53,373 nt of DNA, taken from Caulobacter sp. Lineage in GTDB: Bacteria > Pseudomonadota > Alphaproteobacteria > Caulobacterales > Caulobacteraceae. The notes under the pieces were generated by a model. It was not told where the DNA came from and ran no database searches. It saw only the letters and a program-made list of their open reading frames with translations. Shown here one piece after another: positions 25,186-31,522 of the stretch; position 1 is the first letter of the stretch, and every line of letters starts with the position of its first letter. Made by a program: the position numbers and the translations under genes. Location of the stretch: the NCBI GenBank assembly GCA_019636175.1, contig JAHBYC010000002.1, forward strand, positions 126,759-180,131, written 5' to 3'.

Positions 25186-25247
25186 TTCCCGCGCGCGCCG
25201 CGCCGGGGAGCCGTAGAACCACGGCCGTTCGACCTGGCTATTGAATT

Positions 25248-25358
25248 CCGCTCCTCCCGGCGGAGGCCGGGACCCAGATTCAGCCGCTCCGCCAACTGAA
25301 TCATCCTGAGAGACTGGCGCTCAGGCGGCTGGACCCCGGCCGTCGCCGGGGAGAGCGG
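25248..25358. repeat. Diverged copy of the palindromic intergenic element (copy C)
   Basis: Left end CCGCTCCTCCCGGCGGAGGC and right end GCCGGGGAGAGCGG are imperfect inverted copies of each other and resemble the ends of the elements at 28050-28214 and 28671-28811. Each arm contains its own small hairpin (CCCGGC-GGAG-GCCGGG type). It occupies the gap between the 24781 and 25395 genes, and may act as a bidirectional terminator. Confidence 0.65.
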
Positions 25359-27162: not shown

Positions 27163-27864
27163 ATGGCTGGCCAGATCGAAATCATCAAACTGATCATCGC
27201 CTATACGCTGGTCGGCGCGTTCGTCTTCACGGTCGTCGCGACCTGCGGCTCACTGGTCGGGCTGATCAAGTTCGCCGACAACGGCCAGCAGAAGAAGCTG
27301 TTCGCCGTGCTGGTCGTCGAGCTGGTCGTGATCTGTGTCGGGGCTTTCGCGAACCTCTTGAACCTGAACCCCATCGCCACCGCCAACGACATTCAAAAGC
27401 CCCTGGTGACCGAGATCCGGGGCCTTGAGGTCGCGGCCGTTCAGCAAAGCGAAGCGACGTCCACGGTGGCGAACCAGCTCAACACCGTAGCCCTCAAGGG
27501 CCTCCGGCCGGAAGCGGAAACAGCGGCGGCGGCCCTGATCGCGGCCGCCCGGCGGGAGGGCGTCGATCTGCGTCTCTGGTCCGGCTACCGGTCGCCCGAA
27601 CAGCAGGCGGCCCTTTACGCCCGCGGCCGCACCGCACCCGGCGCGAGGGTCACCAGTGCAAAGCGGTCGGTGCACACCACCGGCCTGGCGTTCGACGTGG
27701 TGATCTACACCAACGGCAAGCCGGACTTTGACTCGCCGAACTACCAGCGCGTCGGCGCGATCGGAAAATCACAGGGTCTGGTCTGGGGCGGCGACTGGCG
27801 CACGCCCGACTATCCGCATTTTGAACTGCCCAATGCGCAACGGGTTCTGGCGGCGATGAAGTGA
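27163..27864 (+). CDS. Membrane-anchored M15-family peptidoglycan peptidase
   Basis: A 233-residue protein with two N-terminal membrane helices (about 8-30 and 45-66) and a linker, then a periplasmic M15-type peptidase domain (about 115-233). Zinc ligands fit His171 and Asp178 in SVHTTGLAFDV and His219 in PHFEL, with Glu221 or a nearby acid as base; SGYRSPEQQAALYA is the family's substrate-binding start. VanY/CwlK/endolysin-type M15 enzymes cut D-Ala-D-Ala or L-Ala-D-Glu bonds in cell wall peptides. The double membrane anchor is unusual for a phage endolysin, so a cell-wall remodelling role or a domesticated lysin are both possible. No phage genes are nearby. Confidence 0.87.
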   Translation: MAGQIEIIKLIIAYTLVGAFVFTVVATCGSLVGLIKFADNGQQKKLFAVLVVELVVICVGAFANLLNLNPIATANDIQKPLVTEIRGLEVAAVQQSEATSTVANQLNTVALKGLRPEAETAAAALIAAARREGVDLRLWSGYRSPEQQAALYARGRTAPGARVTSAKRSVHTTGLAFDVVIYTNGKPDFDSPNYQRVGAIGKSQGLVWGGDWRTPDYPHFELPNAQRVLAAMK

Positions 27865-27935
27865 CGGGGCTGCGGGGGGCTCCGCCGGCCGGAGGTTGGG
27901 CTTGCGGCCCGTGGGCGACCTGCAACCACCGTAAG

Positions 27936-27978
27936 CCCTCATCCGGCGCTTCGCGCCACCTTCTCCCTCAGGGAGAAG
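27936..27978. repeat. Short palindromic repeat, family 2
   Basis: CCCTCATCCGGCGCTTCGCG followed by CCACCTTCTCCCTCAGGGAG. Contains two nested hairpins (GGCGC-TTC-GCGCC type and CTTCTCCC-...-GGGAGAAG). Related copies are at 33377-33424 and 33484-33544. Probably a REP-like element or transcription terminator. Confidence 0.65.
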
Positions 27979-28049
27979 CATTTTGATGGCGCGTCACCTG
28001 CGTCAGCGGCCGCGCGCGGTAGACCGATCAGCCCCACCAGCCACACAAT

Positions 28050-28214
28050 CCGCTCATCCCGGCAACCCGAAGGACGGCGCGAAGCGTCAATGCCGGGCCC
28101 CAACCGCGTGATCTCGATGTTTGAATTTCAGGGCGCTCCATCCGCCAGCTTTAGCGCCAATCCCAAAGGTCAGCGCTCTGGCGGATGGGTCCCGGCCTTC
28201 GCCGGGATGAGCGG
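28050..28214. repeat. Palindromic intergenic element, copy A
   Basis: 165 bp beginning CCGCTCATCCCGGC and ending GCCGGGATGAGCGG. The right 34 bp (28181-28214) are identical to the right end of copy B, and the shared stretch extends to about 44 bp. Both copies share an interior GCGTGATCTCGATGT. The left arm is enlarged by an insertion between CCCGGC and GCCGGG. It lies 49 bp from the stop of the GIY-YIG gene. Confidence 0.85.
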
Positions 28215-28263
28215 ATTTGTGGAGTGAGCGGAAGTGGGGTGACAGGTTTTTGGGAGGTGGGGA

Positions 28264-28608
28264 TCAGGGCGCGGGGTTGGGGAGGGTGGCGAGGAAGGCT
28301 TCGACGTGGCCGGGCGGGCCGATGCCGCAGGCATCCCAATAGAGGTCGCGCCAATTGGGGTTGGCGTCTTCGATGAGGCGGACCTTCCAGGACCGGCGCC
28401 ATTCCTTCATGCGGCGCTCGCACTGGAAGGCCTCTTCGCGGGTGTCGAAGGTCTGGAACCAGACGAGGCGGTCGCAGCCGTACCTGGCGGTGAAGCCTGG
28501 GATGGCCTTGCTCTTGTGCTGGGCGATGCGCGTGGTCAGGCAATCGGTGCTGCCGAGGTAGAGCGTTCCGTTCTGCTTGTTGGTGACGATGTAGCAGTAG
28601 AAGGCCAT
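28264..28608 (-). CDS. GIY-YIG single-domain nuclease (UPF0213/URI-like)
   Basis: A 114-residue protein made almost only of a GIY-YIG domain: AFYCYIVTNKQNGTLYLGS (the GIY and YIG motifs as CYI at 5-7 and YLG at 17-19), TTRIAQHK with catalytic Arg27, FQCERRMKEW with catalytic Glu64 and the Asn of ANPNW. All catalytic positions are present, so it should be an active endonuclease domain. The ATG at 28608 starts it as most relatives do; a longer start at 28659 is less likely. The gene is bracketed by palindromic elements A and B in direct orientation, with nothing else between them. Such short GIY-YIG genes occur in many copies in related genomes; the cellular role is undefined. Confidence 0.9.
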   Translation of the reverse strand: MAFYCYIVTNKQNGTLYLGSTDCLTTRIAQHKSKAIPGFTARYGCDRLVWFQTFDTREEAFQCERRMKEWRRSWKVRLIEDANPNWRDLYWDACGIGPPGHVEAFLATLPNPAP

Positions 28609-28670
28609 GGAGGGACCATGGGCTTTTGCGAACAAAATGGCAACATTTATCGCGGTCACAGACCCCTACT

Positions 28671-28811
28671 CCGCTCATCCCGGCGAAGGCCGGGACCCAT
28701 CCGCGTGATCTCGATGTGTGAGGGTCAGGGCTCCCCCTCAGCCTGTTCGAGCCCAATGCTTACAGGCCTGCGCTCTGGCGGATGGGTCCCGGCCTTCGCC
28801 GGGATGAGCGG
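28671..28811. repeat. Palindromic intergenic element, copy B (perfect 34-bp terminal inverted repeats)
   Basis: 141 bp. Bases 28671-28704 are an exact inverted copy of 28778-28811. Each arm carries an inner hairpin, CCCGGCGAAGGCCGGG. It sits 62 bp upstream of the GIY-YIG start codon and has the same orientation as copy A. The layout is that of a MITE or REP/BIME element. Confidence 0.88.
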
Positions 28812-28822
28812 ATGTTGGAGGA

Positions 28823-28888
28823 TGAGCGGAGGTGGGAGGGTGAGCGGAGGTGGGAGGGTGAGCGGAGGTGGGCGGATGAGCGGATGAT
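28823..28888. repeat. 18-bp tandem repeat (about 3.5 units)
   Basis: Units of TGAGCGGAGGTGGGAGGG repeated head to tail, the last ones diverged (TGAGCGGAGGTGGGCGGA, then a partial TGAGCGG). It directly follows the right end of copy B and reuses its TGAGCGG end sequence. Confidence 0.8.
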
Positions 28889-28936
28889 GAGTGCGGATGT
28901 TGGGGGAGGGCCGTCACCCCTCCCCCTCCACCAGCC

Positions 28937-31522
28937 TTAGTGCACCCGGGCCTTGCCGATCTCCAGCGCCCCGTCCCCGGCGTGCACCTGGATGACGCTG
29001 CCGTCTTCCAGGTCGCCGGCCAGGAGCTTCCTGGCGATCGGGTCGACCAGGTCTTTCTGGATCACCCGCTTCAGCGGCCGCGCGCCATAGACCGGGTCGT
29101 AGCCCTTTTCGGCCAGCCAGTGCAGGGCGCCGTCGTCCAGGGCGATGGCCATGCGGCGGTCGGCGAGGAGTTTTTCCACCCGGTCCAGCTGGATGCGGAC
29201 GATGGCGCCCATGTCCGCGCGGGCCAGCCGCTTGAACAGGATGATCTCGTCGATCCGGTTGAGGAATTCGGGCCGGAAGCTGCGGCGGACCACGTCCATG
29301 ACCTGGGGCCGGACCAGTTCGACGTCCTCGCCCTCGGCCTGGGCGGCGAGGAATTCGGCGCCCATGTTGCTGGTCATGACGATCAGGGTGTTGCGGAAGT
29401 CGATGGTGCGGCCCTGGCCGTCGGTCAGGCGGCCGTCATCCAGCACCTGGAGCAGCACGTTGAACACGTCGGGGTGAGCCTTTTCGACCTCGTCGAACAG
29501 CACGACCTGATAGGGCCGGCGACGCACCGCCTCGGTCAGGGCGCCGCCCTCGTCGTAGCCGACATAGCCGGGAGGCGCGCCGATCATGCGGCTGACGCTG
29601 TGCTTTTCCATGTATTCGCTCATGTCGAGGCGGGTGATCGCCGTCTCGTCGTCGAACAGGAATTCGGCCAGGGCCTTGGTCAGCTCGGTCTTGCCCACGC
29701 CCGTGGGGCCCAGGAACAGGAAGCTGCCGATCGGCCGCTGCGGGTCCTTGAGGCCGGCGCGGGCGCGGCGCACGGCGTCGGACACGGCGACCAGCGCCTC
29801 TTCCTGGCCGACCACCCGCTGGCGCAGGCCATCCTCCATGCGCAGCAGCTTGTCGCGCTCGCCTTCCAGCATCTTCTCGACCGGAACCCCGGTCCAGCGG
29901 CTGACCACGGCGGCGATCTGCTGGGCGTCGACCACCTCGGGGGCGAGGTCGTTGTCGGCCTTGCTGGTCACCTCTTCCTCGGCCAGGCGCTTTTCCATGG
30001 CCGGGATCTCGCCATAGGCGATCTCGGAGGCGCGCTGCAGGTCGCCGCGGCGCTGGGCGGCGGTCAGTTCGGCCTTCAGCCGTTCCAGGGCCTCGCGGCT
30101 CTGGGCGGCCGAGCCGACCTTTTCCTTTTCCGCCTTCCAGCGGGCGGTCATGTCGTCGGACTCCGCCTGCAGTTCCTCGATCTCGGCGTCGAGATCGCCC
30201 AGCCGGGCCTTTGAGGCGGCGTCTGTCTCCTTGCGCAGGGCCTCGCGTTCGATTTTCAGCTGGACCAGGCGGCGGTCGATCTCGTCCAGTTCCTCGGGCT
30301 TGGAGTCCACGGCCATCCGCACCCGGCTGCCGGCCTCGTCCATCAGGTCGATGGCCTTGTCGGGCAGGAAGCGGTCGGCGATGTAGCGGTGCGACAGGGT
30401 GGCGGCGGCGACGATGGCGCTGTCGCTGATGCGCACCCCGTGGTGCAGCTCGTATTTCTCCTTCAGGCCGCGCAGGATGGAGACGGTGTCCTCCACCGTC
30501 GGTTCGTCGACGAACACCGGCTGGAAGCGACGGGCCAGGGCGGCGTCCTTTTCCACATGCTTGCGGTATTCATCGAGGGTGGTGGCGCCGACGCAGTGCA
30601 GCTCGCCCCGCGCCAGGGCGGGCTTGAGCAGGTTGGAGGCGTCCATCGCCCCGTCGCTCTTGCCGGCGCCGACCAGGGTGTGCATCTCGTCGATGAACAG
30701 GATGATGCCGCCCTCGGCGGCGGTCACCTCGTTGAGCACGGCCTTCAGACGCTCCTCGAACTCGCCGCGGTATTTGGCGCCGGCGATCAGGCTGCCCATG
30801 TCGAGGCTGAGCAGCTTCTTGTCCTTCAGGCTTTCGGGCACGTCGCCCTCGACGATGCGCAGGGCCAGACCCTCGACGATGGCGGTCTTGCCGACGCCGG
30901 GCTCGCCGATGAGGACGGGATTGTTCTTGGTGCGCCGCGACAGCACCTGGATGGTGCGGCGGATCTCCTCGTCGCGGCCGATGACCGGGTCGAGCTTCTG
31001 GTCGCGGGCGGCCTGGGTGAGATCGCGGGCATAGCGCTTGAGGGCGTCGTAGCCTTCCTCGGCCGAAGCGCTGTCGGCGGTGCGGCCCTTGCGCATGGCC
31101 TCGGCGGCGGTGTTGAGGGACTTCTCGTCGACCCCGGCGCCCTTGAGGGCCTTGGCCGCCTCGCCGCCTTCCTTGGCCAGGGCGATCAGCAGCCGTTCAG
31201 TGGTGACAAAGCTGTCGCCGGCCGCCTTGGCGCCTTCCTCGGCGGCGGCGAAGACGCGGGCCGATTCCGGCTTCAGATACAGCTGGCCCGAGCCGCCCTC
31301 GACCTTGGGCATCTTGCCCAGCAGCGCCTCGACCGCCGTCTCCACGGCGTCGGGCCGGCCGCCGGCGCTCTGGATCAGGGCGGCGGACAGGCCGTCCTTT
31401 TCCTCGAGCAGAACCTTGAGCAGATGTTCGGGCGCCAGCTGCTGGTGGCGGCGGGCCAGGGCCAGGGATTGGGCCGATTGCACGGCCTGTTTGGCGCGGT
31501 CGGAGTAGAGGTCGATATTCAA
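28937..31522 (-). CDS. clpB: ATP-dependent disaggregase ClpB
   Basis: An 861-residue Hsp100 chaperone. It has the N-terminal Clp repeat domain ([18 protein letters not shown]), AAA-1 with Walker A GEPGVGKT and [17 protein letters not shown], the coiled-coil middle domain (about 400-530, helix-rich, with [20 protein letters not shown]), and AAA-2 with [19 protein letters not shown] and [15 protein letters not shown]. The middle domain distinguishes ClpB from ClpA/ClpC, and no ClpP-binding IGF loop is needed. It works with DnaK to dissolve aggregates after heat shock. A possible sigma-32 promoter lies 67-95 bp upstream. Full length. Confidence 0.97.

Follow-up and report, generated by a model that had tools for sequence, protein, structure and literature searches.

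What does a small nuclease gene do between two palindromic repeats, and do the enzyme and the repeats belong together? The question is raised by a stretch of 53,373 nucleotides from a Caulobacter sp., the whole of which is called the window below, taken from a draft genome of 3.17 Mb in 91 contigs that is 86.9% complete. A first-pass annotation, made from the letters of the window, had recognised in it a short GIY-YIG gene with intact Arg27 and Glu64, located between two palindromic elements, and had likened the arrangement to an autonomous/non-autonomous pair of mobile elements. The gene and the repeats around it are the following.

28264..28608, minus strand: GIY-YIG nuclease gene, 114 aa, with an ATG at 28608, protein starting MAFYCYIV
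28264-28659, minus strand: longer open frame of the nuclease gene, GTG start at 28659, 131 aa
28047..28217, no strand: element A, a REP pair whose left hairpin is interrupted by about 24 nt (repeat search, alignment)
28047-28063 and 28201-28217: outer perfect 17-nt pair of element A (repeat search)
28181..28222: right REP of element A, forming with 28663-28704 a gene-spanning inverted repeat of 42 nt at 93%
28663..28704: left REP of element B, the partner arm of 28181-28222 around the nuclease gene
28670..28812, no strand: element B, a head-to-head pair of CGTC-like REP hairpins (repeat search, alignment with six other copies)
28670-28704 and 28778-28812: perfect inverted ends of element B, 35 nt, 100% complementary
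25247..25358: element C, a diverged, gene-less REP pair (repeat search, alignment)

Both parts of the earlier description of the gene hold. With element A on one side and element B on the other, it sits between a D-Ala-D-Ala carboxypeptidase-like gene (27163-27864) and an open reading frame at 28937-31522 that we take, from its sequence, to be clpB. The encoded protein matches the Pfam GIY-YIG model PF01541 (E 3e-15, 56.7 bits, cut-off 22.6), which is the sole Pfam domain found in it, and it consists of this single catalytic domain. Among the positions that are invariant in 14 aligned nuclease proteins are Y23, R44, E81 and N100 in the numbering of the longer open frame; R44 and E81 correspond to the Arg27 and Glu64 of the ATG-initiated protein, where both are present, and from what is known of the GIY-YIG family we assume that these two are the catalytic residues. 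At an E-value of 0.001 the Pfam model identifies two GIY-YIG genes in the same genome, the window gene and one in a 590-aa open frame that is presumably UvrC. A protein search adds one decayed nuclease fragment (C65:2660-2779), which brings the total for the window-type nuclease in its own genome to one intact gene and one fragment.

Elements A and B agree at 81% over 128 nt, and alignment confirms that their final 44 nt are identical, as had been read from the window. The inverted ends of element B are indeed perfect, measuring 35 nt and not the 34 nt given at first, and the third, diverged copy that had been placed near 25248-25358 was recovered by the repeat search as element C, with no nuclease gene among the adjacent ORFs. 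Each element end in the window is a hairpin with the tag GCTC, the stem ATCCCGGC/GCCGGGAC, the loop GAAG and the tail CCA; in the hairpin ATCCCGGC-GAAG-GCCGGGAC-CCA, the first pair is A-C and the remaining seven pair. All the copies that were aligned, namely elements A, B and C and four further ones from the same genome, are head-to-head pairs. Since the window repeat occurs in at least 37 distinct places of its own genome, the window included (78 of 94 matches, merged within 400 bp; 40 of 131 candidates scored), the repeats of the window are not there by chance. Element B was also considered as an RNA gene and rejected, Rfam giving only a sub-threshold miRNA match (28.6 bits, gathering score 77.5). 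Two other repeats lie close by: directly outside element B, positions 28802-28891 hold a short tandem array of 18-bp units (approximately GGGTGAGCGGAGGTGGGA), each with a tag-like TGAGCGG, and a different repeat of about 50 nt (GCCCTCATCCGGCGCTTCGCGCCACCTTCTCCC...), found at 27929-27981 downstream of the carboxypeptidase-like gene, has matches of about 90% in several relatives.

Hairpins of closely similar form were defined as CGTC REPs by Di Nocera, De Gregorio and Rocco (2013; PMC3733652). As described there, these short hairpins carry on one side an unpaired tag (CGTC, often TGTC or CCTC) and have a stem of 8-9 bp starting with AT, a loop of 4-5 nt and a CCA tail; head-to-head dimers predominate, most occur in Alphaproteobacteria, and the Neisseria type CGTC-1 is equated with dRS3 (PMC3733652). 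The paper describes the elements as seemingly devoid of a dedicated transposase and as old components of bacterial genomes (PMC3733652). The stem, the loop, the CCA tail and the head-to-head pairing of the window repeats fit this class, whereas their tag, GCTC, is one letter away from CCTC, and the partner loci found elsewhere carry mostly CGTC or TGTC.

A search for the nuclease in 61 genomes of the Caulobacterales (the source genome included) gave matches in 48; a single genome has as many as 13, and fragments are among them. The survey took in every match at E 1.8e-15 or better, 110 in number, plus four weaker loci, 114 altogether, and retained 110 loci that have 60 or more aligned residues and come from 48 genomes (L050, L063, L080 and L346 were dropped; L, G and C numbers are our own handles). 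Inverted repeats (at least 22 nt, 88%, within 400 bp) were found at 79 of the 110 loci and span the gene at 51, and CGTC-type hairpins lie within 300 bp of the nuclease at 70, on both sides at 38. Random ORFs, drawn from twenty 20-kb stretches of eleven of the surveyed genomes, were flanked by inverted repeats under the same tests in 25/307 cases and spanned in 1/307, and the same hairpin detector found a hairpin on any side in 7/307 and on both sides in 0/307. When each of the 86 sites distinguished by flank homology is counted once, 60 loci have an inverted repeat, 38 a spanning one, 55 a hairpin and 29 hairpins on both sides, the respective Fisher p values against the random ORFs being 4e-30, 1e-27, 8e-37 and 1e-21. 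Repeats of either kind accompany 95/110 nuclease loci vs. 29/307 random ORFs, and 15/110 nuclease loci have neither kind. Further controls for the inverted repeats gave 8/133 for intergenic regions and 2/41 for short genes and, in an earlier 77-locus set, 8/107 for distal windows (500 bp or more away from the nuclease) and 4/106 for windows of the clpB region. Note also that the hairpin detector demands a perfect stem except for the first pair, and its matches are therefore not counted as evidence for pairing. That GIY-YIG genes should have such elements close by more often than other genes, an expectation derived from the window, is thus confirmed in this clade (79/110 vs. 25/307, and 51/110 vs. 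1/307 for the spanning repeats).

The association was also followed across phyla. A collection of species genomes holds at least 571 relatives of the nuclease, the best 80 of which were kept as named loci; at least two of these are also in the order-level set (L180 = G029:C72 and L183 = G052:C10). The phyla represented among these best 80 of at least 571 include Alphaproteobacteria, Bacteroidota, Gamma- and Deltaproteobacteria, Parcubacteria, Roizmanbacteria, Chlorobiota and others. Inverted repeats are present at 44 of the 80 named loci vs. 4/149 distal windows; CGTC-type hairpins are present at 58 of the same best 80 of at least 571, on both sides at 39, the corresponding figures for other ORFs of the named loci being 3/31 and 0/31. 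An earlier detector with a slightly stricter tail had given 56 and 37 of the best 80 named loci, and 6 and 0 of the 307 random ORFs. The hairpins of the named loci mostly consist of CGTCAT or TGTCAT, a stem and a CCA tail, and their stems are very different. Nine loci from a plasmid collection, picked for breadth out of 35 records, carry a TCAT-type palindrome in eight cases, that of Spirosoma being without the CCA tail and Planktothrix being the locus without a palindrome; the Neisseria locus has CGTCATTCCC...GGGAATCC repeats. On the Planktothrix agardhii plasmid (L172), the GIY-YIG gene is found between genes labelled MmeI and DISARM helicase drmA, and it perhaps belongs to a clade with a role in defence.

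If enzyme and repeat form a pair, they would be expected to vary together, and they do. The similarity of two nucleases correlates with that of their hairpins (r 0.62 for 55 one-per-site loci), a value reached in 0/2000 full permutations and likewise in 0/2000 shuffles of the hairpins among the nucleases of one genome, which preserve genome kinship (mean r 0.31, maximum 0.54). For pairs under 0.8 nuclease similarity r is 0.58 (0/2000); the co-variation is weaker for very diverged nucleases (similarity below 0.6), with r 0.33, a value reached by 1/2000 within-genome shuffles. In the named set (58 loci of the best 80 of at least 571) r is 0.55, with 0/2000 full permutations reaching it. When each nuclease was compared with its nearest counterpart in another genome, using an earlier set of 54 loci in which several per site were allowed, the repeat of that counterpart was more similar than the mean of the repeats of that genome's other nucleases in 27/29 comparisons, and more similar than the best of them in 23/29. 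The conserved feature is the hairpin with its tag and tail, the sequence itself diverging: a perfect stem of 6 bp or more lies inside 32 of 38 arms (the longest repeat of each one-per-site locus with a gene-spanning repeat, defined without the hairpin detector), where letter shuffles lead one to expect 3.3. Retention of an internal hairpin in most arms while the sequence diverges suggests that a folded end is recognised.

Evidence that such units move comes from one nuclease clade, present in G029, G025, G026 and G011 with units of about 500-600 bp. Seven full copies occupy four distinct sites, three of them in G029, and have sharp ends: they align from CCGCTCATCCTCGCGG...GTGCAC to its inverse, and their flanks are unrelated except in same-site copies. 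Truncated derivatives keep the inverted ends of the full units. In a first form (six copies, five in G026 and one in G011), the left end is joined to the 3' part of the gene at a junction identical to the base, and a second form (five copies, two in G026 and three in G029) has its own common junction. Some of the truncated copies lie at contig ends, a few flanks have short repeats in common, and the truncated L053 of G026 stands at a place that in G011 is taken by a full unit (L056), so that independent insertions are fewer than copies; gene conversion may also have spread some of the deletion junctions. A junction shared at several places is nevertheless the expected outcome of amplifying a deletion derivative and, together with the sharp-ended units at four sites, it supports the autonomous/non-autonomous pair proposed from the window.

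Outside the REP tag of these G029-type elements, CCCC occurs within 16 nt at 18/22 left and 16/22 right ends (15 distinct sites; background 151/3216). It takes the form of CCCCC plus 5-8 variable bases, directed at the element from both sides (L041-L063, L112, L347-L366), and the ends at three G029-type sites have approximately GACCTCAACTCCCCC in common further out. The C-tract and this shared outer motif imply that the true end of the element may lie further out. A site-specific palindromic target was considered and rejected: the left and right flanks of one element are no more alike than those of different elements (likeness 6.68 within vs. 7.06 between, a value that 4106/5000 shuffles reach). 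By eye, one old unit site (L112/L120, G011:C135) appears to contain a REP pair of one type enclosed by the ends of a different type.

The number of repeats also follows the nuclease. The exact 24-mer CTCATCCTCGCGGAAGCGAGGACC of the G029-type clade occurs in 6/61 genomes (the reversed control in 0), with 23, 14, 12 and 5 copies in the four genomes that have the matching nuclease clade and with 3 and 2 in the two others. Within the genus, three repeat types are commoner in genomes with the matching nuclease (one-sided p 2.7e-4, 1.6e-4 and 6.5e-7), after subtraction of four gene-flanking copies. On the other hand, repeat type 2 is present in 38 copies in G027, a genome without any nuclease match, and G034 has 113 copies of repeat type 1 while its only nuclease is flanked by another repeat type; among the unmatched genomes of the genus, at least one copy is found in 12/31 for type 1 and in 9/32 for type 2. 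For the dependence of the repeats on the nuclease that the first-pass annotation anticipated, the picture is mixed: copy number is higher with the matching nuclease, but repeats persist without one, G027 and G034 indicating that repeats outlive or outrun their nuclease, or that other enzymes act.

Orthologous sites differ in whether they hold a unit. Azospirillum lipoferum 4B has one between sufB and sufC that is absent in 3/3 aligned relatives (A. ramasamyi, A. oryzae and strain B510), and in Shinella HZN7 a unit lies between amidohydrolase and hydrolase genes, at a site where 3/3 aligned relatives (L304, L305 and L306) have no homologous unit and where the annotation of L309 shows no such gene. 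The L041 site holds the full unit in G029, G025 and G026, a gene-less pair in G011 and nothing of the kind in G000. The contrast of empty with filled sites that had been envisaged at the outset is therefore available as presence or absence at orthologous positions, but not as clean empty sites: with the unit absent and the spacers diverged, no target duplication or clean junction is readable at the aligned Azospirillum, Sinorhizobium, Shinella and G030/G033/G027 sites. For the window itself, clpB matches in relatives seldom cross the spacer and no empty site is readable among the matches listed; G014 matches both sides of the window spacer and has a longer spacer of its own. Rhizobium tumorigenes and CIAT894 offered no usable site among the matches listed, and a region of S. 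medicae contained just two hairpins.

Sequence comparison establishes that nuclease and repeats are associated and co-vary, that inverted ends span the gene, that nuclease units occur at several unrelated sites, that deletion derivatives have a common junction in several places, and that orthologous sites differ in having the unit or not. Judging from these comparisons, we consider it probable that CGTC-type REPs have the single-domain GIY-YIG nuclease as their dedicated enzyme, and that the gene and the palindromes make up one selfish system that also mobilises gene-less derivatives. The autonomous unit, of about 480-600 bp, would be composed of a REP hairpin, the nuclease gene and an inverted REP hairpin, while gene-less REP pairs such as A, B and C (about 110-170 bp) and internally deleted units would be non-autonomous and mobilised in trans. 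The nuclease would bind the REP type that belongs to it, probably in the form of a hairpin or cruciform, and would move the derivatives by nicks or cuts at the ends of the REPs or close to them; host repair or replication would then complete the insertion. GIY-YIG enzymes hydrolyse DNA and are not known to carry out strand transfer.

Alternatively, the gene could be a free-standing parasite of homing type that targets existing REP pairs, another enzyme having made and moved the REPs, in which case the co-variation would express target specificity only. GIY-YIG homing endonucleases such as I-TevI are indeed known, and they have the catalytic domain and the mobility of the gene in common with the units described here. 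They possess, however, an added DNA-binding domain and one cognate target and often reside in an intron, whereas the present units have inverted ends and occur at several unrelated sites; Pfam finds no second domain in the window nuclease, the group I intron endonuclease model scoring 16.8 bits against a cut-off of 56.05. The behaviour of one Sinorhizobium site is in line with such a parasite. S. meliloti Ak57 has an intact unit with a truncated one beside it, the latter consisting of two REPs around a 3' piece of the nuclease gene (94.5% over 91 nt). The place of the truncated unit is taken in Sinorhizobium K101 by a solo palindrome composed of the outer halves of both REPs (L263 vs. L174 1170-1350), a possible excision scar or insertion target; the pair fits insertion into, or excision from, a hairpin loop. 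Yet truncated units with a partial gene recur with a common junction, the identity of full copies stops at the REPs and not within them, and no transposase gene regularly adjoins CGTC repeats according to the part of the original description used here (PMC3733652). We regard this alternative as unlikely.

It is also conceivable, though in our estimation very unlikely, that the REPs are housekeeping palindromes (terminators or mRNA stabilisers) that gather at small accessory genes, the nuclease being incidental or profiting from termination. A location mainly downstream of genes, reported for REPs (PMC3733652), agrees with this, as do the nuclease loci with one-sided REPs (70/110 with any, 38/110 with both). 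But short genes in general are rarely flanked in this way (2/41), gene-spanning ends mark 51/110 nuclease loci vs. 1/307 random ORFs, the repeat type tracks the nuclease type across genomes, and the units occur at several sites of one genome. Slightly less likely still is a domesticated control enzyme, with a host or anti-mobile function, that would remove or edit REPs by cutting their extruded cruciforms and would on that account be retained in their vicinity: conserved internal stems would suit it as cruciform or hairpin substrates, and many REPs persist in some genomes that have no matching nuclease, but matching nucleases accompany more repeats, not fewer, and the genes are multicopy in many genomes, with some matches being fragments, as in mobile genes.

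For a system formed by the nuclease and its REPs, the obvious comparison is REP/RAYT, in which a small gene is bounded by its own REP type, many gene-less REP pairs exist, and enzyme and repeat co-vary. The bounded small gene, the gene-less pairs in many copies and the co-variation all recur here, and the likeness to REP/RAYT noted at first sight holds for architecture and co-variation alike. The difference lies in the enzyme and the tag, RAYT being a Y1/HUH tyrosine transposase of GTAG REPs and REPINs, whereas here a GIY-YIG enzyme accompanies the tag GCTC or CGTC; the present system works like REP/RAYT and is not a member of it. As in a pair of insertion sequence and MITE, terminal inverted repeats span the gene (51/110) and recur on gene-less and deleted copies. 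Penelope-like retroelements are mobile and have a GIY-YIG domain linked to a reverse transcriptase; the domain is common to both, but the unit described here measures about 0.5 kb and is without a reverse transcriptase. The closest solved relatives by profile are the UPF0213-type single-domain GIY-YIG proteins PDB 1zg2 (E 1.2e-7) and PDB 1ywl (E 1.7e-4), which have the same small catalytic domain as the window nuclease.

As published, CGTC REPs seem to have no transposase of their own, whereas here a GIY-YIG nuclease is their regular partner. The term GIY is absent from the main text of the defining paper (PMC3733652), and the text of a 2006 survey of GIY-YIG proteins contains neither "palindrom" nor "inverted repeat" (PMC1564403). 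Among the papers listed from the open PMC literature, we found no report that pairs GIY-YIG with REPs or dRS3. A co-varying nuclease partner makes the mover of CGTC REPs directly testable. If the proposal is true, it would place a nuclease class among the known enzymes responsible for spreading bacterial repeats, assign a function to the many small proteins that are labelled just "GIY-YIG nuclease family protein", and have a bearing on known repeats such as dRS3; the variety of nucleases, each with its own hairpin, would also be of technical interest. A wider generalisation, for which we see the chances as evenly balanced, is that of a multi-phylum class of DNA insertion elements whose sole enzyme would be a hydrolytic GIY-YIG protein of about 100 residues, recognising its own hairpin ends and spreading itself and a very large number of gene-less palindromes through host repair; pairings of this kind would have arisen in two GIY-YIG clades or more, with two different palindrome classes (CGTC REPs and TCATCCTGAGC...GTCGAAGGA), and much of the palindromic repeat content of bacteria would be owed to GIY-YIG enzymes.

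The second of these clades came to light through a control. Seventeen loci (L265-L281) of weaker Caulobacterales GIY-YIG matches, mostly of a separate clade that we take to be UPF0213-like (assigned by eye), were meant as negative examples. They served as such for CGTC-type hairpins, found at 0/17 (two loci were not relocated), but failed for palindromes in general, since 7/17 have long inverted repeats that looked like another palindrome class. That class reads TCATCCTGAGC...GTCGAAGGA, and it is with these palindromes, not with CGTC hairpins, that the UPF0213-like clade of the Caulobacterales pairs. At least two copies of the motifs TCCTGAGC/GTCGAAGGA, which were picked after the arms had been seen, are present in the flanks of 11/15 relocated loci vs. 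5/480 random windows, and inverted repeats span the gene at five of the 15.
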